This document shows, one piece after another, positions 18,632 through 38,828 of a stretch of DNA of 64,000 nucleotides. The DNA comes from a virus, in the IMG/VR virus record IMGVR_UViG_3300030108_004965, positions 62,001-126,000 of that record; one strand, 5' to 3'. Under the pieces are notes generated by a model that worked only from the letters and a program-made list of their open reading frames with translations, searched no databases and was not told the DNA's origin. Position 1 is the first letter of the stretch. Each line of letters starts with the position of its first letter. The translations under genes were made by a program, and so were the position numbers.

Positions 18632-18829
18632 CTAGTGTAGAAGGCCGCAGGACAGGGGCTTTAATCGTTTACTCTCAGTCCAGAAAGGTTTTATTTTATG
18701 TAAGAATGAAACATAAACATCAAGACCGTAATCATAAAAGGGTTCTTCTGGTACAGTCCTGAGAACCAAGACCATTCTATGGCCGTCCAGCATAAGCAAG
18801 TCACCTGCTGTTATGTCATTCCAGTTCAT
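18632..18829 (-). CDS. Divergent GDLV-family protein
   Basis: The 65-aa product has ITAGDLLMLDGHRMVLVLRTV, i.e. the GDL strand followed by a hydrophobic strand without the usual Gly. The C-terminus is basic (FWTESKRLKPL). It is the last gene of the operon that starts at 20116 and overlaps 18816-19010 by 14 nt. Confidence 0.62.
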   Translation of the reverse strand: MNWNDITAGDLLMLDGHRMVLVLRTVPEEPFYDYGLDVYVSFLHKIKPFWTESKRLKPLSCGLLH

Positions 18830-19010
18830 CTAACACCTCGTAGTATATAAGGAATGACGACCAGTTTGTTGTGTGGACATTATCATAACTACCGAACATT
18901 CTAACACGTAAGTGTTCTACTGTGATATCATTCGTTTCATTCTTTCCTACAACTTCAGCATGTCCATAGTTTCCTTTACTATCTCTCACCAATAACTTTT
19001 TATTTTTCAT
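18816..19010 (-). CDS. Hypothetical 64-aa protein of the array operon
   Basis: ATG 19010 follows GGAGG and overlaps the upstream stop as ATGA. MKNKKLLVRDSKGNYGHAEV has no GDLV motif but is also beta-rich and ends YYEVLDELE. It may be a fast-diverging relative. Confidence 0.6.
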   Translation of the reverse strand: MKNKKLLVRDSKGNYGHAEVVGKNETNDITVEHLRVRMFGSYDNVHTTNWSSFLIYYEVLDELE

Positions 19011-19186
19011 GTGTCCTCCGATGTTTTCACTTTGATTAACCATTTATTTGAGTGGTTGCTTGTTACGCCATTTGCCCATTGTACAGCACTTGCGCCCGAA
19101 TGAGATACAGAACCCTCAACAACTCTTATCACGATACCTAGACAGTCTTTGCTTCCGCTGTATCGCACTAAATCTCCTACCTTCAT
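19007..19186 (-). CDS. GDLV-family small protein
   Basis: 59 aa: MKVGDLVRYSGSKDCLGIVI, with GDLV at 4-7 and GIV at 17-19, then AVQWANGV. The C-terminus (WLIKVKTSEDT) departs from the usual LEVI. The stop overlaps the next start by 4 nt. Confidence 0.78.
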   Translation of the reverse strand: MKVGDLVRYSGSKDCLGIVIRVVEGSVSHSGASAVQWANGVTSNHSNKWLIKVKTSEDT

Positions 19187-19371
19187 AATGCCTCCAAATA
19201 ATCTTTGTGTACTCGCCTTGTCTCACCATCGCTCCATGTTACATACCATCCAAGATCCCATTCTCTAACCAGAACACCGACCTGCTCTCGATAGTCAACA
19301 TTGTCCATCTGCTCGTATTTCCTTCCAACGCACCATACCATCGTCCATTTAACTAAATCTCCTTTTTTCAT
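19183..19371 (-). CDS. GDLV-family small protein
   Basis: 62 aa: MKKGDLVKWTMVWCVGRKYE with an unusually long loop before VGVLVREW (31-38). YVTWSDGETRRVHKDYLEAL closes it with the expected Trp strand and LE end. Confidence 0.8.
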   Translation of the reverse strand: MKKGDLVKWTMVWCVGRKYEQMDNVDYREQVGVLVREWDLGWYVTWSDGETRRVHKDYLEAL

Positions 19372-19378
19372 TTTGTCC

Positions 19379-19552
19379 TCACGGGTTTGAGCATGCTATC
19401 AGTTCCATATCTTCATAGGAGCAAAGAACCGTTGTGTTGTCGAACAACTGGACAACAGCATACATTTCGCTTTCTGTGTCCTCCCAGTGGAGATCAATGA
19501 TGATCCCCATCTGGTCGATTATCTTGTCCTTTACCAAGTCTCCAATCTTCAT
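19379..19552 (-). CDS. GDLV-family small protein
   Basis: 57 aa: MKIGDLVKDKIIDQMGIIID, then MYAVVQLFDNTTVLCSYEDMELIAC. The acidic loop WEDTESE distinguishes it. An 8-bp gap separates it from the next gene. Confidence 0.76.
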   Translation of the reverse strand: MKIGDLVKDKIIDQMGIIIDLHWEDTESEMYAVVQLFDNTTVLCSYEDMELIACSNP

Positions 19553-19710
19553 TCTATCTTCTCCAGTTCATCGCTTGCCCACACACACGGCACAGGATAG
19601 GCACAGCCAGTTAACAATGAGCGCACAACGTAGAGCGCAGGTCTAATCTCGATGACTACCGCCAGTTCACCGAACTCTTTATCAAGCACCAAGTCTCCAA
19701 CATTAAACAT
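19549..19710 (-). CDS. GDLV-family small protein
   Basis: 53 aa: MFNVGDLVLDKEFGELAVVI; the Gly before the second strand is replaced by Ala. It is rich in Leu/Val/Cys and ends SDELEKIE. GGAAG supports ATG 19710; ATG 19713 is adjacent. Confidence 0.72.
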   Translation of the reverse strand: MFNVGDLVLDKEFGELAVVIEIRPALYVVRSLLTGCAYPVPCVWASDELEKIE

Positions 19711-19712
19711 CA

Positions 19713-19937
19713 TCACTTCCAAGTAGGCTGAAGAGTTTCAGTGCAGAAGGTCAGGTCTTTGTGAGTAATCCACTTGTCGATACCATCGAACAGTTCGAGA
19801 TCCCAAGTTCGCAACTTGACTTCTTTGCCTTTGGTGTCGGTAGCATCGACATAACTGTACCCTTGCGATATAACTATGAAGAGTTCTCCGGTGCGTTCGT
19901 GGCGAACCAAGTCGCCTGATTTAAGTCGTAATCTCAT
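19713..19937 (-). CDS. GDLV-family small protein
   Basis: 74 aa: MRLRLKSGDLVRHERTGELF with GDLV at 8-11, FIVISQGYSYVDATDTKGKE, then LRTWDLELFDGID and a 20-residue extra tail. Confidence 0.77.
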   Translation of the reverse strand: MRLRLKSGDLVRHERTGELFIVISQGYSYVDATDTKGKEVKLRTWDLELFDGIDKWITHKDLTFCTETLQPTWK

Positions 19938-20116
19938 TTTGCCTCCAAAGCGTAGATTATTTCGTCGATTGCTTCATCAAGTTCGAGAAGGTCATGTGCC
20001 TCGTCTTGATTGGTTGTTGTTGATGTTCGATGGATTATCCATCGCTGGATTTGTACCAGTCTTTCGTAGTCAGGATTTTCAGTGTTGTTAAGGTATTGCC
20101 AAATCTTGTCAATCAT
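19934..20116 (-). CDS. Hypothetical helical protein (60 aa)
   Basis: ATG 20116 is preceded by AAGGAAC. MIDKIWQYLNNTENPDYERL is followed by a helix ending LDEAIDEIIYALEAK. It is acidic with no GDLV motif. It is the first gene of the operon reading down to 18632. Confidence 0.65.
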   Translation of the reverse strand: MIDKIWQYLNNTENPDYERLVQIQRWIIHRTSTTTNQDEAHDLLELDEAIDEIIYALEAK

Positions 20117-20145
20117 CTTAGTTCCTTTTGTTGGGGTTATACTAT

Positions 20146-20188
20146 ATTGTATCACGTTGAGGGGAAAAGTCAAGGACAGAAAATGTCC
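20146..20188 (-). promoter_or_regulatory. Class II-type activator site and promoter
   Basis: GGACAGAAAATGTCC (20174-20188) abuts TTGACT (20168-20173), 16 bp, TACAAT (20146-20151). Drives the 20116-18632 operon. Confidence 0.8.
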
Positions 20189-20190
20189 GT

Positions 20191-20406
20191 TTATGCGATT
20201 TTTGTTATGCCTCGGAGTAGACCGAGTTTTGTAAAGACCTTTTCTTTTCCCTTGCCATAAACAGGGGATTTAATGACCTCAGTTGTGATGTAAGGCGCAC
20301 CATAACGGCTTGTATCGCAAGAAGTGCCCGTTACAATGAGAACCTCATTGCCTACGTTACATTCGTTAAGGAGAATGTCTCCTATTTTGATCTCGGTGAT
20401 GTTCAC
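20191..20406 (-). CDS. GDLV-like protein (GDIL variant)
   Basis: 71 aa: MNITEIKIGDILLNECNVGN, EVLIVTGTSCD, and a basic end PVYGKGKEKVFTKLGLLRGITKIA. It is a single-gene transcript with its own activator site. Confidence 0.65.
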   Translation of the reverse strand: MNITEIKIGDILLNECNVGNEVLIVTGTSCDTSRYGAPYITTEVIKSPVYGKGKEKVFTKLGLLRGITKIA

Positions 20407-20437
20407 AGTGAACTCCTTTTGTTTGGGTTATATAAGT

Positions 20438-20480
20438 AATGTATCACGTTTTGAGAGTTTGTCGAGGACATAAAATGTCC
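20438..20480 (-). promoter_or_regulatory. Class II-type activator site and promoter
   Basis: GGACATAAAATGTCC (20466-20480) abuts TCGACA (20460-20465), 16 bp, TACATT (20438-20443). Drives 20406. Confidence 0.82.
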
Positions 20481-20482
20481 GT

Positions 20483-20761
20483 TTATGCAATCAGCCCAGC
20501 ATGTCGAGCCGCTTCGGGAAGCATAATACTTGATGGCTTGACTTCACGCTTGATAAGTCCAACGTGTTGAGAAGTTGTCATCGAGATGAAGTCACCGCCT
20601 GTCGCTGTGAAGTCATAGACAACGATACCGCTTGTTGTCCACTCGGCAATCTTGAGTTTGTAAGAATAAAGAGCAGTACCATCGGTAAAAAGGTTAAGGC
20701 CGAGAGCGTCGCGACCGTTGAGGAAAGAGTTGATTACTTGTTCGTTTGTTGGGATTGGCAT
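20483..20761 (-). CDS. Conserved phage protein, paralog of 22207-22512
   Basis: 92 aa from ATG 20761 (GGAGG, 5 nt). MPIPTNEQVINSFLNGRDAL, ALYSYKLKIAEW, VVYDFTA and SMTTSQHVGLIKR occur in the same order in the second copy at 22207. I recall the TTSQHVG family from marine phages. The function is unknown; the pair has diverged to roughly a third identity by eye. Confidence 0.78.
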   Translation of the reverse strand: MPIPTNEQVINSFLNGRDALGLNLFTDGTALYSYKLKIAEWTTSGIVVYDFTATGGDFISMTTSQHVGLIKREVKPSSIMLPEAARHAGLIA

Positions 20762-20791
20762 TGTTGCCTCCATTGTTTGGGTTACATATAT

Positions 20792-20834
20792 AATGTATCA
20801 CGTTTTAAGGTTTTGTCGAGGACATTTTATGTCC
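20792..20834 (-). promoter_or_regulatory. Class II-type activator site and promoter
   Basis: GGACATTTTATGTCC (20820-20834) abuts TCGACA (20814-20819), 16 bp, TACATT (20792-20797). Drives 20761. Confidence 0.82.
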
Positions 20835-20855
20835 GTTTTTGTTTAGTCTCGAACA

Positions 20856-21074
20856 TCAGGGAGTTACAGGGAACACTTCATGTGCATGAAGCCAATAGGC
20901 CGAACCAAGCGATTGAAAGTGAACCTTGACCAGAAGCGTTGCTTGGTTCTTGTAACCCTCGACAGCAACGACTATTCCGATAGAACAGGTTCGCCATTGT
21001 CGATAGACGTTCTCATGCACATGGATACGAAGTGTCTCGCTATCCACGGTCACAAGATCGCCCACCTCGAACAC
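20856..21074 (-). CDS. GDLV-family small protein (GTG start)
   Basis: 72 aa: MFEVGDLVTVDSETLRIHVH, then SIGIVVAVEGYKNQATLLVKV and a final HEVFPVTP. The frame opens with GTG at 21074 right after the upstream stop, so coupling probably drives initiation. Confidence 0.74.
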   Translation of the reverse strand: MFEVGDLVTVDSETLRIHVHENVYRQWRTCSIGIVVAVEGYKNQATLLVKVHFQSLGSAYWLHAHEVFPVTP

Positions 21075-21803: not shown

Positions 21804-22050
21804 GTTTCTTAAATCCTCCGTTGCGTCCTTGCTTGTAAAGTTCGTTGGCACGGGCTTCATCAATAAATTCTATTTCTTCTTTGAGATTGAAATGTTTTGT
21901 ACAAAAGAACCATTTTTTACCATGACCCATAGACTGAAAAGTGACCATCCACAAGTCATCATTCGGGTTCTTTCGGGGCTTTATCCAAAGAGCATAGCCA
22001 ACCCCATACACTTGATGTTCACAGTATTTATATTTATCATCATTCGACAT
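21742..22050 (-). CDS. Hypothetical basic protein
   Basis: 102 aa, starting MSNDDKYKYCEHQVYGVGYA. A beta-rich middle (WMVTFQSMGHGKKWFFCTKHF) precedes a basic C-terminus (KRTKNVRKDPKNLADLL). The palindromic operator of the next gene is embedded near its 3' end. GAGG supports the start. Confidence 0.7.
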   Translation of the reverse strand: MSNDDKYKYCEHQVYGVGYALWIKPRKNPNDDLWMVTFQSMGHGKKWFFCTKHFNLKEEIEFIDEARANELYKQGRNGGFKKRTKNVRKDPKNLADLLDSLF

Positions 22051-22210
22051 AATCGTAATCCTCAGTTAAAATGTGCAAGATGTTATGGTAGTGTGCATTG
22101 TAGTGAAAAATAACAGGAGTGTCGTAGTCATCGAAGAAATGAACATGCCAATAGTTATCAACTCTCTTGGCATGTCCGTATCCTCGATCAAAGTGACGAA
22201 CCAAAATCAT
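22040..22210 (-). CDS. His-rich 56-aa protein
   Basis: ATG 22210 to TGA 22040 overlaps both neighbours by 4-11 nt. It encodes MILVRHFDRGYGHAKRVDNY, then WHVHFFDDYDTPVIFHYN and HYHNILHIL. The nine-odd His residues suggest metal binding, but no known spacing is met. Confidence 0.6.
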   Translation of the reverse strand: MILVRHFDRGYGHAKRVDNYWHVHFFDDYDTPVIFHYNAHYHNILHILTEDYDYVE

Positions 22211-22512
22211 CGTCTGTTCTGCGGCAGAAGGCCGGAAGCCACCGCAGTCTCGACTAATACGACGTTTCGCCTTGGTACACGTTGCTTCACCATGCCAACA
22301 TGCTGTGATGTCGTTTGAGACTTGTAAGCGTTGCCACGGGCAGTGTAGTCGTATACTAGGGTAGTAGCCTTTCCATAATCATCTGGAATATGTTCGGCAA
22401 TCCGTAGGTTGTAAGAGAAGAGAGATTGACCATCTGTGGTCAATGCACCCCCATTTGCTGGTCGTTGGTTCATAAAAGCATTTACTACTTGTTCGTTAGT
22501 GTGTCTAGCCAT
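22207..22512 (-). CDS. Conserved phage protein, paralog of 20483-20761
   Basis: 101 aa from ATG 22512. MARHTNEQVVNAFMNQRPAN, SLFSYNLRIAEH, LVYDYTARG and QTTSQHVGMVKQRV match the copy at 20483 motif by motif. It is driven by the AACCCGATA-type promoter rather than by a palindrome promoter, so the two copies are differently controlled. Confidence 0.78.
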   Translation of the reverse strand: MARHTNEQVVNAFMNQRPANGGALTTDGQSLFSYNLRIAEHIPDDYGKATTLVYDYTARGNAYKSQTTSQHVGMVKQRVPRRNVVLVETAVASGLLPQNRR

Positions 22513-22542
22513 TGTTACCTCCAATGGGTTTTGGGTTGTATA

Positions 22543-23024: not shown

Positions 23025-23042
23025 AAGCCCCTAAAGGGGCTT
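23025..23042 (-). terminator. GC-rich hairpin at end of vWA gene
   Basis: AAGCCCC-TAAA-GGGGCTT is a perfect 7-bp stem overlapping the stop of 23041. A U-run is lacking on the minus strand, so termination may be partial. Confidence 0.45.
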
Positions 23043-24294
23043 ATTTGTCCACCGCAATGACACGCTCATTCGTTGTGAAGTATGGACGAGAAGCACACTC
23101 CGGAGTAGTCATCCACATACGCTGACACTTCGATGGTACGGGCTTAGGTGCTTCCATATCAGTTAGAATGATATGACCATCAAAGTTGCGCTCATTGACC
23201 CAACGGGTCGGAGCGTCGAAGCAAGTACCACCGCAAGAGACACGCTCGAAGGTTCGACGTTTCCCCTTCTTCCAGACATAGACTTCATCTTCAGCAACGA
23301 CTGTATCGAAGGGAACAACGGTAAACTCGGCATACTTGGCAAGTCCGTTAAGTTCTGCGAAGAAGATGGAAAGCATTTGATCTGAAACAGATCCCGACTG
23401 GTCGATAGAGATAGCAATCTTGGCTGTACGGTTGACCTTCTTTCCAGCATGAATGTAAGGGAAACGCTTGTTAATCCTACGGACTGTCGAGCGACGATTA
23501 GCCCGTTGGGAAGTCTTGACAAAGTATCGAAGCACAGACCGCCAGTTCACCTTCGGTGTAACCATATCTTGGATCTTCTTTCTCATACCTTGGGATACAG
23601 TACCCCAGCCACGACCGCCAGCATTGACTTCATCGGTTGCCTTGCGGATAACGTCTTTCAAGCGTTCCTCGGCCATAGCCTTAGTCTCTTGATCGACTTC
23701 TCCCCAACCGCTGTGGTCATCGAGGCTATCAGGCAAGCCGCCACCGCCTTTACCTTGCCCATCACCATCGGAAGGATCGCCAGAGCCAGAACCTTCGCCA
23801 TCTTGACCTTCGCCTTGACCTTCGCCTTCGCCATCTTTAGGCTTGAACTGCTCGTCATTCTGAAGTTTGGAGAAGTACCACTCAGCCGACATTTCCAGAG
23901 GATAGTCTTGAAACGGCTCTTGTGTCGGGATACAGCCACCTTCGGGAAGTTTACCAACCAAGAAGGAGTTGATCGCAAGGTCTGTGGCTACATTCCACAT
24001 TTTGGACATACCCTCCGGTGGTAGGCGACCAGTAACATGTTCTAAGATAAGATGATAAAACTCATGCATAAGAACCCCAAGCCGCTGTTCTTCTGGAAGA
24101 TCAGCAAAGAAGTTAGGATTGTACATCATGACGAACTGAGCAGTCTCTTTGTCAATCATTACACCAGCGGTAGGAATAGCGGTGCTTTCCACTTTGTGAA
24201 TACGACGAGACAAGCCAGCGAAGAAGGGTTCGGATTGTAGCAACTTGAAAGTGTGTTTGTTCAAGTCAAACTTGGGAGTTGTTTTGTCAGTCAT
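23041..24294 (-). CDS. Metallopeptidase-vWA protein (DUF2201 type)
   Basis: The 417-aa product has an N-terminal zinc-peptidase-like domain with VLMHEFYHLILEH (HEFYH at 77-81). A Gly/Glu/Asp-rich linker (about 153-188) follows. The C-terminal von Willebrand domain has the metal site DQSGS (298-302) and ends VIAVDK. This is the DUF2201 arrangement, which in bacteria is encoded beside a MoxR-type AAA+ ATPase, exactly as here (24394-25458). Such pairs are thought to act as metal-dependent chaperone or insertion machines. The substrate is unknown. Confidence 0.85.
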   Translation of the reverse strand: MTDKTTPKFDLNKHTFKLLQSEPFFAGLSRRIHKVESTAIPTAGVMIDKETAQFVMMYNPNFFADLPEEQRLGVLMHEFYHLILEHVTGRLPPEGMSKMWNVATDLAINSFLVGKLPEGGCIPTQEPFQDYPLEMSAEWYFSKLQNDEQFKPKDGEGEGQGEGQDGEGSGSGDPSDGDGQGKGGGGLPDSLDDHSGWGEVDQETKAMAEERLKDVIRKATDEVNAGGRGWGTVSQGMRKKIQDMVTPKVNWRSVLRYFVKTSQRANRRSTVRRINKRFPYIHAGKKVNRTAKIAISIDQSGSVSDQMLSIFFAELNGLAKYAEFTVVPFDTVVAEDEVYVWKKGKRRTFERVSCGGTCFDAPTRWVNERNFDGHIILTDMEAPKPVPSKCQRMWMTTPECASRPYFTTNERVIAVDK

Positions 24295-24320
24295 AAGACC
24301 TCCAAGGTTTTGGGTTATGT

Positions 24321-24353
24321 AATATACTTATCGGGTTAGACAGGAGTTGTCAA
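24321..24353 (-). promoter_or_regulatory. AACCCGATA-type promoter
   Basis: TTGACA (24348-24353), spacer ending AACCCGA, TAAGTA (24325-24330) with TATATT overlapping. Drives 24294. Confidence 0.65.
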
Positions 24354-24393
24354 GAAAAAGGAGTAAAAAACCTTGACAACCCCCGTCACTTCG

Positions 24394-25458
24394 TTAGTCC
24401 TTCTTAGCACCAAGGATCTCGATCATGTAATCACGAACAGAAGAACCGTTGGAAAGTTGCACAGAATGGACACCAGAAGCGTTGTGACGCTGTTCAGCAC
24501 CTGAAGCAATAACAGTCCAGAAAGACATGCCAATCTCCGATGGTAGCGTGATCATGTACTCAGCAACATTTTTCAGTTGATCAGCAGACAACTTATCATC
24601 GAAGCACTTAGATTGCTTGAACTTCTCGATAAGAGCGTTGTGGTCGTTGATCTTGAAGTCTTTGGTCAAATCAAGTTTGCCTTCATCCAAGATGTTCTCG
24701 ACAGTTACAATCTTCTTGTAGTTTGCAACGAAGTCATTGAAAGCGACCGCACCCTCGAAGCCAATGAAAGAAGAGGCAAGGTGATAAAGCACAGGGCTTT
24801 GCTTAATCTCCCCATTCATCGAGAGTAGAGCGTCTGAAAGACGAACCCAAGAGCGACGAGAAGGATAAACCTTGTTAGGCTCGTATTCATCGGTATGTTC
24901 AAGGTGTTGATGGTTTTGGTTGATGAAGTCCCAGATTTGAGAAACTACGTTTCCATCTGCCCAATCGAGCCAATCTTCAACCGTAGGTTGTACATCAAAG
25001 ACAGTATAGCGATCCAGTTCCGCTGGATCCATTTCACCAACTTGATACTGTGCCCCGTGTTCTCCACCGTTTACACAAGCAAAGATAAGGGTGTCGGGGT
25101 GTAGGGTATACCCTGCGATCTTCCGACTGTCGCATAACTCGAAGATACCTTGGCGAACTTCCATAGTTGCACGGTCTACTTCATCGAGGAATAGGATAGC
25201 AGGTTCATTGCAAGCGTTATGCAACCATTCTGGTGCAAGCCACGTAGTAACGTTGCCCTCTACCTTTGGTAGACCAAGCAAGTCACCTTCGGTCATCTGT
25301 GAAGCACGACGCTCGATGACAGGCAGACCACGGGCTTCTGCAATCTGATAGACGATAGCGGATTTACCGATACCGTGACGACCACGAATGAGAACAGGAA
25401 ACTTAGCGTCAAGGATGAAAGGAAGAACTGAGTTGAGAGTTTTGAAGTCAATAGCCAT
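24394..25458 (-). CDS. MoxR-type AAA+ ATPase
   Basis: 354 aa with Walker A GRHGIGKS (26-33), Walker B ILFLDEVDR (88-96) and sensor-1 FACVNGGE, followed by AELDRYTVFDV. These are the hallmarks of MoxR/RavA-like AAA+ proteins. These work as hexamers with a vWA partner to remodel proteins. The partner is presumably the vWA protein encoded next. It has its own class II-type promoter, while the partner has an AACCCGATA promoter, so they are not strictly one transcript. Confidence 0.88.
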   Translation of the reverse strand: MAIDFKTLNSVLPFILDAKFPVLIRGRHGIGKSAIVYQIAEARGLPVIERRASQMTEGDLLGLPKVEGNVTTWLAPEWLHNACNEPAILFLDEVDRATMEVRQGIFELCDSRKIAGYTLHPDTLIFACVNGGEHGAQYQVGEMDPAELDRYTVFDVQPTVEDWLDWADGNVVSQIWDFINQNHQHLEHTDEYEPNKVYPSRRSWVRLSDALLSMNGEIKQSPVLYHLASSFIGFEGAVAFNDFVANYKKIVTVENILDEGKLDLTKDFKINDHNALIEKFKQSKCFDDKLSADQLKNVAEYMITLPSEIGMSFWTVIASGAEQRHNASGVHSVQLSNGSSVRDYMIEILGAKKD

Positions 25459-25879: not shown

Positions 25880-25914
25880 TATTATACTCTTATCGGGTTA
25901 GGTTAGATTTGTCA
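25880..25914 (-). promoter_or_regulatory. AACCCG-type promoter
   Basis: TTGACA (25909-25914), spacer containing AACCCGATAAG, then TATAAT (25880-25885). Drives 25843 and 25757. Confidence 0.65.
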
Positions 25915-26088
25915 AGAAAAAAGTTTATTTTTTTCTATCACCTCGAAATTCTGGTCGAGTGTCCATTCCACCCCCCAACTGTTGTTAAGCCAATGGATTT
26001 TGGTTGTACTGGCTACTTTGTTTGTTTCTACTATTATCCCCAGCGCACGGGTGTGGACACGGTGTCTTACTAAATCTCCTATTTGCAT
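25897..26088 (-). CDS. GDLV-family small protein
   Basis: 63 aa: MQIGDLVRHRVHTRALGIIV, KIHWLNNSWGVEW and FEVIEKNKL. The frame runs through the -35 of the next promoter before stopping at TAA 25897, giving a hydrophobic tail (FFLTNLT). An earlier functional end cannot be excluded. Confidence 0.7.
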
Positions 26089-26261
26089 AAGACCTCCAGT
26101 TTATTAATCCAGTAATCCCCAACTCCCATTCCATTGAGCCAATGAACAGTTACCATAGTATAAATGCTCTCCGATGGCGATGTTATTTTCCTGAGTTCAA
26201 CCACAATACCCATGCCTTGGTGCATATCACTTTCATGCATTACTAAAGTTCCTATTTCCAT
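26079..26261 (-). CDS. GDLV-family small protein (GTLV variant)
   Basis: 60 aa: MEIGTLVMHESDMHQGMGIV, VTVHWLNGMG and NKLEVLCK. The LEVLCK end is encoded by the ribosome-binding site and start of the following gene. Confidence 0.8.
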   Translation of the reverse strand: MEIGTLVMHESDMHQGMGIVVELRKITSPSESIYTMVTVHWLNGMGVGDYWINKLEVLCK

Positions 26262-30735: not shown

Positions 30736-30737
30736 GA

Positions 30738-31063: not shown

Positions 31064-31067
31064 GTTT

Positions 31068-31220: not shown

Positions 31221-31221
31221 G

Positions 31222-31494: not shown

Positions 31495-31717
31495 GTTGTC
31501 CTCCTTTGACAATCTTGAATGTTTCAGTTGAACCATAAAGGTCATGATCCCACATAGCGTCATCGTCATCTTCACTTAACCACTTAATGTAGATAAGATG
31601 GGCAAAGCCACCATTTTTGTGGTGCGCCTCGGTATGAGTTACCCACCCTATGTCATTAGCCTCTGGATGATTATTTTCCCAATGTTTATACAGTATCATG
31701 TCTCCAACTTCTATCAT
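31484..31717 (-). CDS. GDLV-family small protein (GDMI variant)
   Basis: 77 aa: MIEVGDMILYKHWENNHPEA, NDIGWVTHTEAHH, LIYIKWLSEDDDD and TFKIVKGGQ. Strongly acidic loop. Confidence 0.76.
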   Translation of the reverse strand: MIEVGDMILYKHWENNHPEANDIGWVTHTEAHHKNGGFAHLIYIKWLSEDDDDAMWDHDLYGSTETFKIVKGGQHER

Positions 31718-32772: not shown

Positions 32773-32796
32773 TTCGACCTCCAAGTCGTTTGGGTT

Positions 32797-32833: not shown

Positions 32834-33024
32834 ACATTTTCTTGATTTTTCTTTATAGCCTCGGTGATCTCGATAAAGTCATCTTTTTTTATTTTTGCAA
32901 GAGCCAGACTAACAATGGCTGGGTCTGTATCCATTCCTTCTATTATATCTTGCAGTTCCCATATGCCCGATTGCTGTAAGATGTGCAATGAGTTAACGGA
33001 GATTTCTAAATCAACTAGGTTCAT
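32830..33024 (-). CDS. Hypothetical helical protein (64 aa)
   Basis: ATG 33024 with GGAGG. MNLVDLEISVNSLHILQQSG, a Leu-rich helical protein ending EITEAIKKNQENV. Its last codons overlap the next promoter. The family is not recognised. Confidence 0.65.
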   Translation of the reverse strand: MNLVDLEISVNSLHILQQSGIWELQDIIEGMDTDPAIVSLALAKIKKDDFIEITEAIKKNQENV

Positions 33025-33259
33025 TTTGTACCTCCTGTATGACTTCGATTTCATTGGACGAACAGCCGATATAGTCTCCGTTCTCCAATGCTACGTGCCA
33101 ACGACCCCAGTGTTCTTGTCCGTGTTCATCGACACCTTCATCGGCCATGACTATCCCGATCCTGTCGGAATAAACATAGCCCCTTTTATCTTTCCATTCT
33201 TTTACAATGACCAGTTCCCCGATCTGAATGGCTTTTTTGCTTCTGTTTATTTTTAACAT
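33011..33259 (-). CDS. GDLV-family small protein (GELV variant)
   Basis: 82 aa with a basic extension: MLKINRSKKAIQIGELVIVK, DRIGIVMADEGV, RWHVALENGDYIG, IEVIQEVQ. Confidence 0.77.
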   Translation of the reverse strand: MLKINRSKKAIQIGELVIVKEWKDKRGYVYSDRIGIVMADEGVDEHGQEHWGRWHVALENGDYIGCSSNEIEVIQEVQNEPS

Positions 33260-33420
33260 AGTATCTCCAAATCTTCTTTGTCTACCCAATCATCTACCAA
33301 ATCTTCTTCACAGACCCAATAGCAAAGTATCATTCCATCCGCTAAATCTTCATGATCCACGATGATACCTATCCCCCAGTAGGGATAACGGGGGTTGTGG
33401 ACTAAATCTCCTATTTTCAT
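33253..33420 (-). CDS. GDLV-family small protein
   Basis: 55 aa, acidic: MKIGDLVHNPRYPYWGIGII, MILCYWVCEEDLVDDWV, EDLEILC. Confidence 0.8.
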   Translation of the reverse strand: MKIGDLVHNPRYPYWGIGIIVDHEDLADGMILCYWVCEEDLVDDWVDKEDLEILC

Positions 33421-33617
33421 ATTACCTCCAAGTAGTAGCCATATTCGTGCGTAGGAGATGCGTTGTGTGCCCACAGCACCGCATACTCCTCATGTTCGTC
33501 CTCATACCCCCCTGCACCTCGGTAGGAGACTATCATCCCGATCCAATCGAACTCATTGCCAGATGGATCAGCGAAGCCCTTCTGGATCTTTACAAGGTCG
33601 CCTATCTCAAAGTTCAT
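33417..33617 (-). CDS. GDLV-family small protein
   Basis: 66 aa: MNFEIGDLVKIQKGFADPSG, WIGMIVSYRGAG, YAVLWAHNASP and YYLEVI. The stop TGA overlaps the next ATG. Confidence 0.8.
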   Translation of the reverse strand: MNFEIGDLVKIQKGFADPSGNEFDWIGMIVSYRGAGGYEDEHEEYAVLWAHNASPTHEYGYYLEVI

Positions 33618-33894
33618 CCTTCACCTCCTTAACGTCCAGAAATGAGCCTATATAACCCACAGGACACCTATACATTATGACCCTCCAGCCCATGAACTGG
33701 GTAGGTAGACGGGTATGCCACGGGGATACCTCGGTATCCTCTGTCTCTGCGTATACGTCTAGTGTAGTACCGCAGTCATTCGATGCCTTGCGGATGTAGA
33801 AGGCACTATCCGTACACTCTATCACTAAGGATTTTATCTCTTCTTTTGCCTCGTCAAACGGGGCTTTCTCTTTATTCCAATGTATGTTAGCCAT
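33607..33894 (-). CDS. Conserved hypothetical protein (95 aa)
   Basis: MANIHWNKEKAPFDEAKEEI, then LVIECTDSAFYIRKASND and QFMGWRVIMYRCPVG. Likely alpha plus beta. GGAGGTGATAA precedes the ATG. It interrupts the array but shares its operon; function unknown. Confidence 0.7.
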   Translation of the reverse strand: MANIHWNKEKAPFDEAKEEIKSLVIECTDSAFYIRKASNDCGTTLDVYAETEDTEVSPWHTRLPTQFMGWRVIMYRCPVGYIGSFLDVKEVKDEL

Positions 33895-34036
33895 TTATCA
33901 CCTCCATTTCGCTTTCTATGTGATAGCCTTGTGTGCCATCAGTCCACTGAACATAAAACTCTCCGTCGTATACCACTTCTGTGATAATGCCGATGTCTCC
34001 ATCTTCGTTGTATCTTACTAAATCACCTACTTCCAT
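33887..34036 (-). CDS. GDLV-family small protein
   Basis: 49 aa, the shortest: MEVGDLVRYNEDGDIGIITE, YVQWTDGTQGYH, MEVING. It shares an identical 34-nt start region with the next copy upstream. Confidence 0.8.
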   Translation of the reverse strand: MEVGDLVRYNEDGDIGIITEVVYDGEFYVQWTDGTQGYHIESEMEVING

Positions 34037-34202
34037 TTATCACCTCCAAGTTTTCTTTTCGTTCATAACTGCTTTTTTGATTGCTCCACTGGATCAGGCA
34101 CTGTTCCACTATCCCGAATGGGGTATATCCAAGCCGTTTCCTAACGACAATACCAAACAACCACTTTGTGTGCTTGGGGCTTACTAAATCACCTACTTCC
34201 AT
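34023..34202 (-). CDS. GDLV-family small protein
   Basis: 59 aa: MEVGDLVSPKHTKWLFGIVV, VEQCLIQWSNQKSS, NLEVINGSR. Basic, unlike its acidic neighbour at 33887. Confidence 0.8.
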   Translation of the reverse strand: MEVGDLVSPKHTKWLFGIVVRKRLGYTPFGIVEQCLIQWSNQKSSYERKENLEVINGSR

Positions 34203-34350
34203 TTATCACCTCCATATCGCTTGGGTTCATAAATCCCAAATCTCCACAAGACCATTGTACCCACCAGCCACCTGTGTTGTGCTTGACAATAATACCTGTC
34301 CTGTTGCACCCATACTTTGACTTCATCTTTACTAAATCACCTACTTTCAT
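34189..34350 (-). CDS. GDLV-family small protein
   Basis: 53 aa: MKVGDLVKMKSKYGCNRTGI, IVKHNTGGWWVQWSCGD and DMEVINGSR. Confidence 0.82.
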   Translation of the reverse strand: MKVGDLVKMKSKYGCNRTGIIVKHNTGGWWVQWSCGDLGFMNPSDMEVINGSR

Positions 34351-34526
34351 ATTACCTCCAACTGAGTTGGGAAATACATTCCGTACTTTCCTGTGTTGAG
34401 CCACAAAACTCTCGTTCTTTGAAACTGGCCAGTTGGTGACATTGATCCTTCTATGACCATGCCAAACCAGTTTGATTTGTCGTGAGAGGTTTTGTGCCTA
34501 AACTTTACCAAATCACCTACTTTCAT
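34347..34526 (-). CDS. GDLV-family small protein
   Basis: 59 aa: MKVGDLVKFRHKTSHDKSNW, FGMVIEGSMS, TRVLWLNTGKYGMY, QLEVI. A GGAGGTAATATG start cassette follows in its C-terminal codons. Confidence 0.82.
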   Translation of the reverse strand: MKVGDLVKFRHKTSHDKSNWFGMVIEGSMSPTGQFQRTRVLWLNTGKYGMYFPTQLEVI

Positions 34527-34689
34527 TTATCACCTCCACATGATAACTGCCGCCAGTTGTAATGCGGCCATCACCCCACTGAATACGGTAAATCCAATGA
34601 ACAGGGTTTACTTGTTTCTTCTTGCTTATTACAATCCCAACACCTTGTTTCGGGTTGGTTGTTAGTTTTACCAAATCACCTACTTCCAT
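34513..34689 (-). CDS. GDLV-family small protein
   Basis: 58 aa: MEVGDLVKLTTNPKQGVGIV, HWIYRIQWGDGRIT, HVEVINESR. Confidence 0.82.
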   Translation of the reverse strand: MEVGDLVKLTTNPKQGVGIVISKKKQVNPVHWIYRIQWGDGRITTGGSYHVEVINESR

Positions 34690-34828
34690 TTATCACCTCC
34701 AGTGATGTTAAAGGGCATAGGTAGATTTCATTATTGAACATAACACAGCAGTCACCATTTCTTCTTATCTCTACAAGAACACCGATGGTTGGGTCATTCG
34801 CAAACAAAACTAAATCACCTATATTCAT
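34676..34828 (-). CDS. GDLV-family small protein
   Basis: 50 aa: MNIGDLVLFANDPTIGVLVE, CCVMFNNEIYLC, SLEVINGSR. ATG 34828 has only a weak GGGG upstream and overlaps the end of 34830 by none (1-bp gap). Confidence 0.75.
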   Translation of the reverse strand: MNIGDLVLFANDPTIGVLVEIRRNGDCCVMFNNEIYLCPLTSLEVINGSR

Positions 34829-34829
34829 A

Positions 34830-35201
34830 TCAATACCCCACTTGTATTTCACGCTTGACATGGATCTCACTTTCCCACCAGTCGCCACGATACTCTATGT
34901 CTTCGAGTTCTTCGCCAATGCGGAGGAAGCGAAACTTTTCTCTTTTTTCAACATCTTCCTCCATAGCGTCCATAAACTTCTCAAACATTTGAATGTCTTC
35001 AAACTCATTGAAGGTGGTATACCATTTTATACTATTGCACGTAAAGAGCCAATGCCCCTCGCATTGATAGTCTTTATCGAACTCAAAGTCAGACATATCT
35101 CCAAAGATTTGAGCCATGAGTTCTTCTGTTTTGAGAAAGGTGAGGAAGTCACCTTGTAAGTCTTTGTGTATTGCTATTGCAACGTCTGATCTGTATCCCA
35201 T
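34830..35201 (-). CDS. Conserved phage protein (MGYRSDV family)
   Basis: 123 aa, acidic: MGYRSDVAIAIHKDLQGDFL, then FDKDYQCEGHWLFTCNSIKW and MDAMEEDVEKREKFRFLRIG. The MGYRSDVA start is one I recall in several phage families; function unassigned. AGGAGG supports the start. It is the first gene of the long array operon down to 33024. Confidence 0.78.
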   Translation of the reverse strand: MGYRSDVAIAIHKDLQGDFLTFLKTEELMAQIFGDMSDFEFDKDYQCEGHWLFTCNSIKWYTTFNEFEDIQMFEKFMDAMEEDVEKREKFRFLRIGEELEDIEYRGDWWESEIHVKREIQVGY

Positions 35202-35232
35202 TGGACACCTCCTGTTTGTTGGTTATACTATA

Positions 35233-35275
35233 AGTGTATCACGACCAGCCAAAAAAGCAAGGTCATTTTTTGTCC
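35233..35275 (-). promoter_or_regulatory. Class II-type activator site and promoter
   Basis: GGTCATTTTTTGTCC (35261-35275) abuts TTGCTT (35255-35260), 16 bp, TACACT (35233-35238). It overlaps the stop of 35263. Drives 35201 to 32830. Confidence 0.78.
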
Positions 35276-35445
35276 GTTTTTATTATTCTTAATTCGACCT
35301 CGGCAATCTCGGAGATAACTCCATCGTTCCACCAAACTCTATACCATCTGTTCCCTGTGTACATGTGCGAAGAGATTACAATGCCGATCTTCTTTGTGTT
35401 GCTCCAAGTCCAGATAAACTCGACAAGTTCACCGTTCTGGATCAT
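35263..35445 (-). CDS. GDLV-family small protein (GELV variant)
   Basis: 60 aa: MIQNGELVEFIWTWSNTKKI, GIVISSHMY, YRVWWNDGVIS, VELRIIKTDKK. Last gene of the operon from 37120. Confidence 0.78.
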   Translation of the reverse strand: MIQNGELVEFIWTWSNTKKIGIVISSHMYTGNRWYRVWWNDGVISEIAEVELRIIKTDKK

Positions 35446-35626
35446 CATTTAAGGCCATTAGTTCACAGTCTATAAGGTCAATCCCTTCAGTTCCATCTGC
35501 CCACAAAACATCGTAAGTTGTCTGATTGAATGTATTTAACTCTGGGCTTGTTATATCCGAAACGATCCCGATCATTCCGTGGTCTGCGTCGTATTGTATC
35601 CACATAACTAAATCACCTATTTTCAT
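35429..35626 (-). CDS. GDLV-family small protein
   Basis: 65 aa, acidic: MKIGDLVMWIQYDADHGMIG, IVSDITSPE, YDVLWADGTEG, CELMALNDDPER. Confidence 0.8.
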   Translation of the reverse strand: MKIGDLVMWIQYDADHGMIGIVSDITSPELNTFNQTTYDVLWADGTEGIDLIDCELMALNDDPER

Positions 35627-35783
35627 TTATCACCTCCAATCCACTGGTGTACATTCCAGACCTGCTTCCGCACTGCCAGAACACCACGGCATATTCCTGA
35701 GCATGCACATGAAAACACAATATGTTCTCTACTATTCCGTACTGTTCGTGTTCTTTGTGTTTTACTAAATCACCTACTTTCAT
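35613..35783 (-). CDS. GDLV-family small protein
   Basis: 56 aa: MKVGDLVKHKEHEQYGIVEN, YAVVFWQCGSRS, GLEVINENR. Confidence 0.82.
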   Translation of the reverse strand: MKVGDLVKHKEHEQYGIVENILCFHVHAQEYAVVFWQCGSRSGMYTSGLEVINENR

Positions 35784-35934
35784 TTATCACCTCCAACCAT
35801 TGGATCTCGATCCAGTAGGTTTTACCACTAGACCAATAAACATTCGCATATCCTTTTGTAACCTCGACAATCATTCCGGTGTCTCCGGCAGAAGGATAAT
35901 CTTCACCTACTATAACTAAATCACCCCTCTCCAT
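35770..35934 (-). CDS. GDLV-family small protein
   Basis: 54 aa: MERGDLVIVGEDYPSAGDTG, MIVEVTKGYANVYWSSGKTY, WLEVINESR. Confidence 0.8.
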   Translation of the reverse strand: MERGDLVIVGEDYPSAGDTGMIVEVTKGYANVYWSSGKTYWIEIQWLEVINESR

Positions 35935-36121
35935 CGAACACCTCGTCGATGCTATCTATCTTCTTGATGAAATGCCCAGCAATGTCAGGGTGCTTTACTT
36001 TGAGCCACATGCCCACAATGTCGCACTCCCACATGTCTACAACCTCATAGTACACGGGTTCATAGTTTTGATACACTCCGTACCTTTTTGCTGTTACCTT
36101 ATCGCCTATTTTTATTCGCAT
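35921..36121 (-). CDS. GDLV-like protein (GDKV variant)
   Basis: 66 aa: MRIKIGDKVTAKRYGVYQNY, YYEVVDMWECDIVGMWLKV, IDEVFDGEG. The second strand is less family-like; the overlap arrangement is kept. Confidence 0.72.
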   Translation of the reverse strand: MRIKIGDKVTAKRYGVYQNYEPVYYEVVDMWECDIVGMWLKVKHPDIAGHFIKKIDSIDEVFDGEG

Positions 36122-36297
36122 AATACCTCCATGCCCCAACTGTCATACGTCCAGCCTCTACCAGATCGCCCGTTTGAGAAAAGAACAACAAAGTAAGATT
36201 TACCCTCCATCCTATATTCTTCCGTCGCAATACCCAACGCACCAACCAATTGTTTGTTGTCGCTTTTTGTGACCATCACTAAACTACCTACTTTCAT
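36112..36297 (-). CDS. GDLV-family small protein (GSLV variant)
   Basis: 61 aa: MKVGSLVMVTKSDNKQLVGA, LGIATEEYRM, YFVVLFSNGRSG, GMEVLCE. Confidence 0.78.
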   Translation of the reverse strand: MKVGSLVMVTKSDNKQLVGALGIATEEYRMEGKSYFVVLFSNGRSGRGWTYDSWGMEVLCE

Positions 36298-36445
36298 TTA
36301 TCACCTCCATTCTTCTGGCTGGTGTCCAAGAATGATCCCCATCGTACCAAAGCACCTTGATGGTGAACTCATTCTGGCCAATCTCTGTTACTATTCCCAT
36401 TTGTTCACTATGGAATACATGCTTTACTAAATCACCTACTTTCAT
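36284..36445 (-). CDS. GDLV-family small protein
   Basis: 53 aa: MKVGDLVKHVFHSEQMGIVT, IKVLWYDGDHSW, RMEVINESR. Confidence 0.82.
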   Translation of the reverse strand: MKVGDLVKHVFHSEQMGIVTEIGQNEFTIKVLWYDGDHSWTPARRMEVINESR

Positions 36446-36624
36446 GATGCCTCCTGTTTGTCGTCTAAGGGTCTGTAAAAGACCCTCCAGTTAATGTCGC
36501 CAATCTGGCAATACCTGTCTTTGTCTAGGTTGATACAGCCGATATATCCACCAACCAATGATGGTTCTGTGACTACGTATCTGTCGCCTAGATCCTTGTG
36601 TATGTAAATGTCGCCTACTTTCAT
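36442..36624 (-). CDS. GDLV-like protein (GDIY variant)
   Basis: 60 aa: MKVGDIYIHKDLGDRYVVTE, GGYIGCINLDKD, INWRVFYRPLDDKQEAS. Lacks the LEVI end. Confidence 0.74.
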   Translation of the reverse strand: MKVGDIYIHKDLGDRYVVTEPSLVGGYIGCINLDKDRYCQIGDINWRVFYRPLDDKQEAS

Positions 36625-36782
36625 ATTACCTCCAACAGATCCTTGTGGATACGGAATGTTAGGTTCGGTTTCCTCGATCTGTTCTTCTTATGAATAAAAA
36701 CAGCACAGTGTGTCGAAGATGCACTGACAACGATACCTATTTCTTTTGTGCTTTTGGTCATTACCAAATCTCCTGATTTCAT
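36621..36782 (-). CDS. GDLV-family small protein
   Basis: 53 aa, strongly basic: MKSGDLVMTKSTKEIGIVVS, CAVFIHKKNRSRKP, LLEVI. The overlapping 133-aa frame at 36688-37089 is a shadow. Confidence 0.78.
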   Translation of the reverse strand: MKSGDLVMTKSTKEIGIVVSASSTHCAVFIHKKNRSRKPNLTFRIHKDLLEVI

Positions 36783-37120
36783 GATGCTTTCCCCTTGTGA
36801 TTAGAGTTGCCGATGTTCTCTCCAACCTTGGAGAAAGCCACGTTATTAAGACCGCCACGACGTTGGTTATTCCAGCCTCTGTTGGCTTCCCAAGTCTTGC
36901 CGTAAATCTCTGCGTCATCCTCGCTGTCGAAGCGTAGGATCTGCATAGCCGCCATCTTACCATCACCGGTAGTGAAGGCACGAACTCTGCTCTTGATTTC
37001 AAGACCAAGTTCCTCGACGCAATCGGGACACTCGTTGATCTTGCCACCTGCCCGTCGCTTTTTAGGGCATTGCAAACTAAAGTCATCACCGCAGTGAATA
37101 CATTCTCTTATGTGTCTCAT
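36779..37120 (-). CDS. Zinc-ribbon protein
   Basis: 113 aa from ATG 37120 (GGAGG). Two CxxC pairs (C7-C10 and C31-C34: MRHIRECIHCGDDF, INECPDCVEEL) form a treble-clef or zinc-ribbon site. KMAAMQILRFDSEDDAEIYG and Asn/Gly/Arg-rich C-terminal stretches follow. It is the first gene of the 37120-35263 operon. Nucleic-acid or protein binding is possible. Confidence 0.74.
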   Translation of the reverse strand: MRHIRECIHCGDDFSLQCPKKRRAGGKINECPDCVEELGLEIKSRVRAFTTGDGKMAAMQILRFDSEDDAEIYGKTWEANRGWNNQRRGGLNNVAFSKVGENIGNSNHKGKAS

Positions 37121-37152
37121 TTGACACCTCCGTTTTGTTTGGGTTATACTAT

Positions 37153-37195
37153 ATCGTATCACGTTGTTAAAATAAATCAAGGACAAATTATGTCC
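37153..37195 (-). promoter_or_regulatory. Class II-type activator site and promoter
   Basis: GGACAAATTATGTCC (37181-37195) abuts TTGATT (37175-37180), 16 bp, TACGAT (37153-37158). Drives 37120 to 35263. Confidence 0.8.
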
Positions 37196-37401
37196 GAAAA
37201 TGCTTTGTAGAGTGCTGGTGTCCAGTCGCTCGGCTTTATCTCATAGTGAAACATTGATTTCCAAGTCTCACTACAAGTGAAGTCTCCATCGTTCCAAGCC
37301 ACTTGGAACATCTCACGATCATCATCATAATCGACAACAATCCCAATGAAAACGTCATCTGTGTCGCTTCTTACGAAGTCTCCGATCTTGAAGTTATTCA
37401 T
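37177..37401 (-). CDS. GDLV-family small protein (GDFV variant)
   Basis: 74 aa: MNNFKIGDFVRSDTDDVFIG, IVVDYDDDREMFQVAWNDGD, then an added helical C-terminus (SDWTPALYKAFSDIICP) that reads across the next operator. Confidence 0.78.
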   Translation of the reverse strand: MNNFKIGDFVRSDTDDVFIGIVVDYDDDREMFQVAWNDGDFTCSETWKSMFHYEIKPSDWTPALYKAFSDIICP

Positions 37402-37603
37402 AGATACCCCCAAGATGCCTAATTTCATCCGTGTAGTGTGGCTGGATGCGTTCATCATAAACTCCATTCAGCCACTCAACAAGGACTTGTCCATAGCCTT
37501 CTTCTGTTATCACCATGCCTATCGGCAATGTAACATCATTTTCCGATGGATCTGGTGTCCAATGTGCGTCATAAACTAAATCACCAATCTTGAACTCACT
37601 CAT
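37394..37603 (-). CDS. GDLV-family small protein
   Basis: 69 aa: MSEFKIGDLVYDAHWTPDPS, LPIGMVITEEGYGQVLVEWL, ending GGIYE. Confidence 0.8.
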   Translation of the reverse strand: MSEFKIGDLVYDAHWTPDPSENDVTLPIGMVITEEGYGQVLVEWLNGVYDERIQPHYTDEIRHLGGIYE

Positions 37604-37853
37604 AATCGCCTCCATCACTGTCGATACCTCCGAAAATCTTCGGATTTCTTTCTTGAACCTGCTTCATACATCGCACTGCTTGCTCATACTGCTCTCTGTA
37701 TTCGTCATTAGGTTCTATCTGATACATAAGTTGCAACTCATGCACACGTTCTTTTATTGCAGTTAGAATAAGAATGTCAACCTGCTCATGTATTGTTGGT
37801 TCTCTTCCTAAGATGGTTTCTAACTCTTGGTTCATTTTTTTAATCGCACTCAT
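37596..37853 (-). CDS. Hypothetical helical protein (85 aa)
   Basis: MSAIKKMNQELETILGREPT, then a long helix (ILILTAIKERVHELQLMYQI) and an acidic Gly/Asp end. GGAG supports the start. No family is recognised. Confidence 0.68.
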   Translation of the reverse strand: MSAIKKMNQELETILGREPTIHEQVDILILTAIKERVHELQLMYQIEPNDEYREQYEQAVRCMKQVQERNPKIFGGIDSDGGDYE

Positions 37854-38085
37854 GGCTATCTCCTTTGATTTCCTTGCAATACTTGATAAGACCTTTGTCC
37901 ATCAAGACAGTTTCGTTCTTGATTATATCGTGAAAGCGGTAGTTGTTTATCACAATACCATCGCTCCTTTTTATTGTTTCTTCTCCTATAAATAGAAGCA
38001 TATCCCAGCCACGATCCCATGAGTTGTTATCATAGTTCCATTGGTTCGTTCGCCAACGGCATTTGTATAATAATCCTGCTGTCAT
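37840..38085 (-). CDS. Hypothetical protein (81 aa), possible distant barrel
   Basis: MTAGLLYKCRWRTNQWNYDN, WDMLLFIGEETIKRSDGIVI, ending LIKYCKEIKGDSHECD. Alternating strands suggest a beta barrel, but there is no GDLV. First gene of its operon. Confidence 0.66.
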   Translation of the reverse strand: MTAGLLYKCRWRTNQWNYDNNSWDRGWDMLLFIGEETIKRSDGIVINNYRFHDIIKNETVLMDKGLIKYCKEIKGDSHECD

Positions 38086-38114
38086 TTTGTCCTCCTGACT
38101 TTGGGTTATACTAT

Positions 38115-38178
38115 ATTGTATCCCGTTGTGGTTCAGTTGTCAAATCTTTTCTGTTTCTTTTCCGGACATTTTTTGACC
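38115..38178 (-). promoter_or_regulatory. Promoter with distal palindrome
   Basis: TTGACA (38138-38143), 17 bp, TACAAT (38115-38120). GGACATTTTTTGACC (38164-38178) is centred about -63. Drives 38085 to 37177. Confidence 0.75.
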
Positions 38179-38226
38179 GCCTCACATGTGATAATAAAAG
38201 GATCGCATACATGCGGAATGAGATTG

Positions 38227-38511
38227 CATAGTTATGTTAAATAAATTTTTTTTTGGGGAAATACATAACATAGTTATGTAAAGTTTTTAGATGATAAAAG
38301 TTGTCAAAAAGTTGTCAAATCTTTGTTGCAAAAGGGTCAAAAACGTGTTATATTAGATAATACGGAGGCTTTTGTGTCAAGTGTTTTTTTACAAGGCTCA
38401 CATAGTTATGTTAAGTTTTTATGAGTTATGTAAAGTTTTTTAGACAAAAGCCATAGTTATGTAAAGTTTTTTGGATTTGTTTTACAGATCCCATAGTTAT
38501 GTAAAGTTTTT
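38227..38511 (+). repeat. Right ATAGTTATGTAAAGTTTTT repeat cluster (6 copies)
   Basis: Copies start near 38227, 38269, 38401, 38423, 38452 and 38492, all in the same orientation as the left cluster. Copies 1 and 3 have an extra T (ATGTTAA), and copy 4 lacks CATA. Confidence 0.85.
38326..38354 (+). promoter_or_regulatory. Possible plus-strand promoter
   Basis: TTGCAA (38326-38331), 17 bp, TATATT (38349-38354), reading into repeats 3-6 and antisense to 38511-38828. Confidence 0.45.
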
Positions 38512-38828
38512 CAATCCTCATCATCAGAACTATCTTCCTCCCAAAATGAGGGGAAATATGCAAAGTGCCTGTACATTTCTGCGTAATAGGAATAGTCCGT
38601 TTCAAACAATTCACTTTTGAATTCGTAGTCTGGTGCAAAGCCTTTACATGCTACGGATGTTATTTCATTGTTATATACAATTCCATAAACTCCGCTCTCT
38701 AAACAAACACTATAATAAAATCCACGATTTTTATTGGAGCAAATAACAAATTCATCCGTGAGTATGATGCACGTTGATGTTGTTGTGCCATCAGAAATCA
38801 AAACAAGATCACCTTTTTCTACCTTCAC
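38511..38828 (-). CDS. GDLV-family protein, long form
   Basis: 105 aa: MKVEKGDLVLISDGTTTSTC, YYSVCLESGVYGIVYNNEIT, then an extra acidic C-terminal stretch (YFPSFWEEDSSDDED). Its stop overlaps the sixth repeat copy. It ends the operon that comes from about 40.9 kb. Confidence 0.72.
   Translation of the reverse strand: MKVEKGDLVLISDGTTTSTCIILTDEFVICSNKNRGFYYSVCLESGVYGIVYNNEITSVACKGFAPDYEFKSELFETDYSYYAEMYRHFAYFPSFWEEDSSDDED

Follow-up and report, generated by a model that had tools for sequence, protein, structure and literature searches.

A minus-strand array of about 40 small SH3-like genes in a T4-like marine virus is built of cassettes that related phages gain, lose and move

Integrons and other cassette arrays consist of interchangeable coding units that are connected by a constant joint and expressed in one direction. 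The host-takeover and early accessory regions of phages T4 and SPO1 are clusters of small, fast-evolving genes under their own promoters, which encode mixtures of unrelated proteins. Few unexplained parts of the viral protein world are larger than the phage accessory regions filled with tiny genes of no known role. Here, we describe the anatomy of one such region, the constraint on its genes and their exchange: a minus-strand array of about 40 genes encoding small SH3-like proteins, for which we could resolve a single fold, a joining rule and direct traces of unit exchange. The array is present in a 64,000-nt stretch of DNA (hereafter, the window) that corresponds to positions 62001-126000 of a 191,696-bp IMG/VR virus record. 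It shares with integrons the interchangeable units, the constant joint and the single direction, and differs from them in that its joint is coding and carries a ribosome-binding site, and in that all its cassettes encode one fold. Neither an attC-like hairpin nor an integrase was noticed at the array, although no search was aimed at them. The array also differs from the early regions of T4 and SPO1 in that a single fold accounts for a third of it and in having cassette joints.

By analogy, T4 MotB may be regarded as a functional precedent for one such protein. MotB, which is produced early and has a predicted KOW domain, is non-essential and toxic to E. coli, binds DNA, copurifies with H-NS and doubles the burst size (PMC6070864, PMC7827196). 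It resembles the array members as a phage early protein with a predicted KOW/SH3-like domain that is encoded in a dispensable region and to which host takeover has been assigned (PMC6070864, PMC7827196). Unlike the array, MotB is encoded by one gene and has two domains, an N-terminal KOW domain and a C-terminal OB-fold, whereas the members are single domains, and the family profile finds nothing in T4. Other small SH3-like phage proteins (PHROG 1690, 21012 and 9237; BFVD entries such as A0A516MBH7; YorP of Bacillus subtilis, 2HEQ) share the fold and size with the members and show weak sequence similarity to them. These proteins are uncharacterised, and the isolates tested have at most one weak match per genome and no array. 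Thus, the fold and single small SH3-like phage proteins were already known; apparently new, as judged from the open literature searched, are the tens of same-fold copies with joints that combine coding sequence and ribosome site, and the traces of cassette exchange.

An initial annotation, made from the letters of the window alone, had described about 45 paralogous genes at 18632-38828 plus outlying copies at 3.1-3.5, 39.0, 41.9 and 59.0 kb. An iterated profile detected 41 minus-strand open reading frames in the window at E<1e-6; its sole plus-strand match (13 bits) is at chance level. With a profile trained on 15 related records, 39 members were found in the window (E 6e-16 to 3e-4), again all on the minus strand, and 36 of them lie inside 18.6-38.9 kb (genes at 19.0-37.6 kb), where they cover 34% of the bases. 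The 15 records together contain 335 members, and those of each record are on a single strand, a placement that puts the array beyond chance. The members are single domains with a median length of 65 aa. Besides those detected by the profile, 28685-28897 is a further member (hhalign, 1.4e-5), 28297-28530 is a probable one (2e-7 with the iterated profile), and 28894-29064 and 29589-29759 are marginal; 18816-19043 and 22040-22210 are unsupported as family copies. The reading frame at 38511-38828 is doubtful: it scored 7e-9 with the iterated window profile, was missed by the 15-record profile and found no support in a separate check. The minus-strand array is therefore real, but the interval holds about 40 family genes, namely the 36 detected by the profile and two to four divergent relatives, rather than 45. 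The outlying copies at 3.1, 3.3 and 59.0 kb were recovered by the profile, those at 39.0 and 41.9 kb were not supported, and the rest of the 191.7-kb record beyond the window gave no profile match. The family genes are distributed as follows.

19007-21074, minus strand: promoter-distal part with six family genes, at 19007, 19183, 19379, 19549, 19713 and 20856 (profile).
25912-31717, minus strand: middle part with 12 family genes, at 25912, 26079, 26261 (a fusion), 27735, 27908, 28066, 28527, 29055, 29216, 29404, 31068 and 31484; in addition, probable members at 28297 and 28685 and marginal ones at 28894 and 29589 (profile or hhalign).
33011-37603, minus strand: densest part with 18 family genes (profile E 3e-15 to 7e-7) that overlap by 14, 4 or 10 nt and are arranged in cassette runs, 33011 to 33617, 33887 to 34828, 35263 to 35934, 36112 to 36445, 36621, and 37177-37603.
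3098-3325 and 3312-3533, minus strand: two overlapping family genes outside the array (profile), with orthologues in the related records G003 and G005.
59019-59246, minus strand: lone distant family gene (E 3e-6), net charge of the product -14.

The order of motifs within the proteins is as originally claimed: (V/I)GDLV near the N-terminus, a variable loop, G(I/V)(I/V)V, a Trp-containing strand and a terminal LEV(I/L)-type strand; the loops vary and the charges differ greatly among copies. A stop-to-stop search for degraded copies yielded no broken fragments and all frames are intact, which rules out decaying repeats and bears out the view that these are real genes.

Next, we analyzed the fold. 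The structure predicted by AlphaFold for one member is a five-strand SH3-like barrel with a predicted local distance difference test score (pLDDT) of 93.1 and a predicted template modelling score (pTM) of 0.75.

36284-36445, minus strand: modelled member, with strands at residues 6-9, 16-22, 28-33, 38-42 and 46-48, the last of which is preceded by a short turn.

The same strand order was obtained for a second member, 3098-3325, whose loops carry long insertions (pLDDT 80), so that the two models share one fold, the small SH3/KOW/Tudor-type barrel that had been surmised. Both models have five strands and, ahead of the last one, a short turn of the 3-10 type; together with the Foldseek matches, this places the domain in the KOW/Tudor/MIB class of SH3-like barrels. 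Tudor, HERC2 and KOW domains match the first model with template modelling (TM) scores of ~0.7-0.84 (PHF19 Tudor 0.79-0.80, NusG KOW 0.76-0.78, HERC2 0.79), and the top match of the second model is PetP (TM 0.61-0.62); the small size of the domain keeps the Foldseek E-values at 0.007 or higher. The Tudor domains of PHF19 and PHF1, MIB/HERC2, the KOW domains of NusG and Spt5, and PetP thus share the five-strand barrel with the members; they differ in being mostly only 9-20% identical and mostly parts of larger cellular proteins, and their ligands are not transferable. In a profile search of PDB sequences the Spt5 KOW domain was best (E 4e-4), followed by uL24c, with eL21 and NusG weaker. Membership of the Pfam families KOW or ribosomal L9 was rejected: the best KOW model reached 17.5 bits against a gathering cut-off of 27, and the ribosomal protein L9 N-terminal domain (PF01281) matched just over the cut-off, along 28 residues, in an inconsistent one of ten members. 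The Pfam and PHROGs scans that were run gave no match of the members to named anti-defence families.

Adjacent copies are connected in a stereotyped way. Of the 181 pairs of neighbouring family genes in 14 records, 144 share an overlap of exactly 14, 4 or 10 nt. In the joint TTGGAGGTGATAAATGAAAGTAGGTGATTTAGTA, for example, the first frame reads L-E-V-I-N-E-S-R-stop, while the second contains a Shine-Dalgarno sequence followed by M-K-V-G-D-L-V. Exact joints of 31 nt occur six times in the window, against zero expected.

34670-34700, minus strand: junction GGAGGTGATAAATGGAAGTAGGTGATTTGGT, consisting of the gene end E-V-I-N-G-S-R-stop, a Shine-Dalgarno sequence and the next start M-E-V-G-D-L-V.
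34017, 34183, 34507, 35607 and 35764, minus strand: further junctions of the same pattern (exact-match search).

Of 153 genes that are overlapped by a family gene downstream, 80 end in LE(V/A), compared with 28 of 157 genes without such a neighbour (p=1.6e-10); this excess implies that the "LEV" motif is partly the ribosome-binding site of the neighbour. The terminal strand noted originally is therefore conserved, but not for structural reasons only. Similarly, the GDLV codons are biased to GGT-GAT-TTA-GTA as compared with both the remaining positions of the genes and the N-termini of other genes. The cassette architecture itself we regard as very well founded.

Whole cassettes are gained, lost and moved among related phages, with edges at the junctions, while the rest of the genome remains collinear. 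In the closely related pair G010/G011, most of which is 80-88% identical at the DNA level, the breaks between collinear blocks are places where one of the two genomes has one or two complete cassettes, running from start to start, that the other lacks. When the gene order of the window was compared with that of the relatives G003 (187 kb) and G005 (112 kb), 14 of 35 adjacencies involving family genes were broken in each case, as opposed to 0 of 52 (G003) and 0 of 30 (G005) between other genes. The effect stays when only orthologues of at least 50% identity are considered (p=9e-5 and 0.002, respectively), and the moved genes are all family genes. The initial annotation had proposed that the set was expanded by duplication. 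However, similarity does not rise with proximity: adjacent and distant copies have the same median score (22 vs 22, p=0.54), which led us to reject recent tandem duplication as the main source, a few recent pairs in other genomes notwithstanding; the data are better explained by entire cassettes being shuffled, gained and lost.

The product of every cassette is a single SH3-like barrel, whose hydrophobic core is fixed and whose surface is copy-specific. In an alignment of 310 members, the entropy is 0.06-2.8 bits at the motif, the second strand, the V and W of the third strand and the L-E-V-I of the last, and 3 to 4.2 bits at all remaining positions, which supports the kept core and variable surface of the initial annotation. 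At the variable columns, paralogues within one genome are 8.5-9.6% identical, compared with 5.6% expected from composition, whereas orthologues of two related phages are 44-60% identical. Between orthologues, variable sites have a ratio of nonsynonymous to synonymous substitutions (dN/dS) of 0.22-0.26, core sites one of 0.12-0.17 and other genes of the window one of ~0.14; these ratios are approximate as dS is imprecise and near 1 or above. The surfaces of orthologous copies are thus held by purifying selection. Positive selection on the loops was rejected at these values, and the earlier suggestion that some copies might be dispensable decoys fits poorly with the constraint on the variable positions. 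Judged from these alignments, the copies are robustly indicated to be real genes with individually maintained surfaces.

Arrays were present in 18 of 20 related phage contigs in a first set of records and in 19 of 19 in a second set, with up to ~41 copies. In all, at least 34 records have four or more copies (range 4-41), on one strand in every locus read. The terminase TerL or the polymerase DnaE of the clade is present in 13 of the 19 second-set records; the other six have neither and are 16-50 kb fragments or, in the case of L133, contain the DnaE end only. No match to the family profile was found in T4 or in the isolates with related terminases (immuto, Mel-JY01 and S-PM2), while Salinivibrio phage CW02 and Klebsiella phage SBP have one weak match each and no array; tblastn with the consensus against isolated phages gave weak single matches only. 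As far as the searched collections show, the array is a hallmark of an uncultivated clade. No description of arrays of this type was found in the open literature searched, whose cover leaves out most subscription journals and preprints, and within that literature the claim of an undescribed phage gene system is borne out.

We interpret the array as a library of specialised small binders, exchanged as cassettes, for host takeover or counter-defence, a reading to which we assign a probability of roughly 0.55. That the members are specialised binders is the likelier part of it; that host takeover or counter-defence is their main role has about even odds. According to this interpretation, the gene overlap would couple translation, so that a swapped-in cassette would be expressed at once, and the constant junction of ~30 nt would provide the homology for cassette exchange by the phage recombination machinery. 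The array would be transcribed early by the host RNA polymerase, and each protein would bind a different host or defence target, sometimes nucleic acid. The set would serve host takeover and counter-defence, with a composition that tracks the local host population. In its broadest and more tentative form, the proposal is that of a natural virus-encoded binder library: one scaffold with independently specialised surfaces, drawn from a clade-shared pool that is recombined at the joint of gene end, ribosome site and start, which supplies each phage with 4-41 host- or defence-targeting proteins and requires no dedicated recombinase. Should the members indeed have different host or defence proteins as targets, an array would amount to a list of weak points of marine bacteria and to nature's equivalent of the engineered SH3-type binder scaffolds, testable copy by copy.

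Several observations weigh against this interpretation. SH3-like barrels bind many things, so that function cannot be read off from the fold alone. Of 20 array breakpoints in G010/G011, 14 are no more than 20 nt away from a family start, against 2.4 expected, but this figure is somewhat inflated, because alignment blocks tend to run on into the conserved junction; the clean start-to-start indels in this pair hold independently of it. Recent donors of two window cassettes were sought in viral contigs, where the relatives found are just 32-43% identical and none is near-identical. No dN/dS value exceeds 1, and hence nothing points to a fast arms race at the distance compared. Finally, sigma70-like promoters also occur elsewhere in the genome, where they belong to another class (TTGACA...GTTATATTATAA), and we can therefore only infer early timing.

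Instead of many host or defence proteins, the members might bind nucleic acid, acting as a KOW-like set (as in NusG/Spt5, ribosomal proteins and T4 MotB) on DNA, RNA, ribosomes or RNA polymerase with differing preferences, and thereby reprogramming transcription, translation or the nucleoid. The best PDB profile matches (Spt5 KOW, then uL24c), the presence of NusG and Spt5 KOW domains among the fold matches and the precedent of MotB (PMC7827196) agree with such a role, as does an isoelectric point (pI) above 8 in 35% of the members. The pI ranges from 4.05 to 11.6, though, and is below 6 in 48%, with a net charge of -9 to -16 in some acidic members; moreover, no basic patch is conserved, and among charged positions only D5 and E55 are strongly so. 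The mixture of acidic and basic members argues against one common ligand, and a single common nucleic-acid ligand was rejected on account of this bimodal charge distribution. We consider a nucleic-acid-binding set unlikely.

Still less probable is a neutral or selfish accumulation, in which the junction eases recombination and cassettes spread although most copies do little. The high turnover, the lack of similarity between neighbours and the location of the members among other fast-evolving small genes would be expected in that case, but the frames are intact, dN/dS is ~0.25 even at variable positions, arrays are kept across the clade, and dedicated promoters are present in the window and in close relatives. 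The members could also be hetero-oligomeric subunits of one phage assembly or scaffold that contact each other rather than many host targets, which would suit their common fold, co-expressed gene run and mixture of acidic and basic proteins; this is very improbable, given 4 to 41 copies per record with free changes in order and content, unfitting for a fixed stoichiometry, and surfaces that are near random between paralogues.

The preferred reading, a library of exchanged binders, also draws on promoter classes that are peculiar to the array. Two classes of array-specific sigma70-like promoters were identified, for which 19 of the 21 matches in the 191.7-kb genome lie at 17.3-38.2 kb; as the matrices were derived from array sites, they show confinement and not strength. 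The array is bracketed by clusters of a 20-bp direct repeat that has no copy elsewhere in the genome.

Anchors 17325, 17923, 20154, 20446, 20800, 21738, 25559, 29798, 31029, 31755, 35241, 37161 and 38123, minus strand: class A promoters, in which the palindrome GGACA-N5-TGTCC (absent at 17923, 21738 and 38123) adjoins the -35 box and is followed by TTGAC/TTGCT and then GTGATACAWT.
Anchors 22554, 24333, 25895, 26996, 28267 and 32813, minus strand: class B promoters, TTGACAAATC-N7-AACCCGATAAG.
18039-18123, minus strand: 3'-side bracket, three copies of the 20-bp direct repeat AAAAACTTTACATAACTATG.
38269-38511, minus strand: 5'-side bracket, five copies of the same repeat, four close and one diverged.

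G003 has both repeat clusters at the matching syntenic sites and G005 has the 3' one; the repeat may be an operator, an origin or a boundary. The G+C content is 41-47% inside the array and mostly 34-42% outside.

One family gene encodes a larger fusion protein, which is kept in G003 and G005, has no Pfam match and could show the working partners of the barrels.

26261-26968, minus strand: N-terminal domain of unknown type fused to a C-terminal barrel copy (residues 158-218, E 3e-4).

Other genes are interspersed with the cassettes, including the following.

29836-30735 and 31792-32784, minus strand: paralogous proteins with two CCHC-type zinc-knuckle-like motifs each, unusual in phage; no Pfam match over the cut-off.
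23041-25458, minus strand: DUF2201 metallopeptidase/VWA protein adjoining a MoxR-type AAA ATPase, 90-95% conserved between relatives despite sitting in the fast-changing array.
20483-20773 and 22207-22524, minus strand: small paralogue pair starting (M)PIPTNEQVINSF and ARHTNEQVVNAF; the sole PHROG match of 22207-22524 is a weak one to PHROG 7247.

The window is part of a T4-like virus of an uncultivated marine clade. Nearly all long reading frames of the 191.7-kb record share one direction. Its terminase is T4-like, with Flavobacterium phage immuto as the nearest isolate (46%), and its DNA polymerase is of the DnaE type, with some 600 or more relatives in viral contigs and no isolate above ~32% identity among the best matches. 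The record also encodes GroEL (identified from sequence). With respect to the host, a scan of genomes with GroEL gave no match, and one with DnaE returned just three contigs of metagenome-assembled genomes, from unrelated taxa (WOR-3, Neomarinimicrobiota and Acidiferrobacteraceae). On inspection of the sequence only, two putative lipoproteins resemble proteins of Myxococcota or relatives, a possible hint at the host.

9671-11257 and 59764-60729, minus strand: putative lipoproteins; a VWA-like region and choice-of-anchor-D-like stretches are present in one of them.
60675-61006, minus strand: transfer-messenger RNA (tmRNA) with the tag ANNNLYFEEALAA; the permuted tmRNA family gives a weaker, overlapping match.

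Elsewhere in the same virus (G000:C1:34000-54000; L009 and L010), there is a long run of genes that, judged from N-terminal sequences alone, appear to be sugar-nucleotide- or glycosyltransferase-like.

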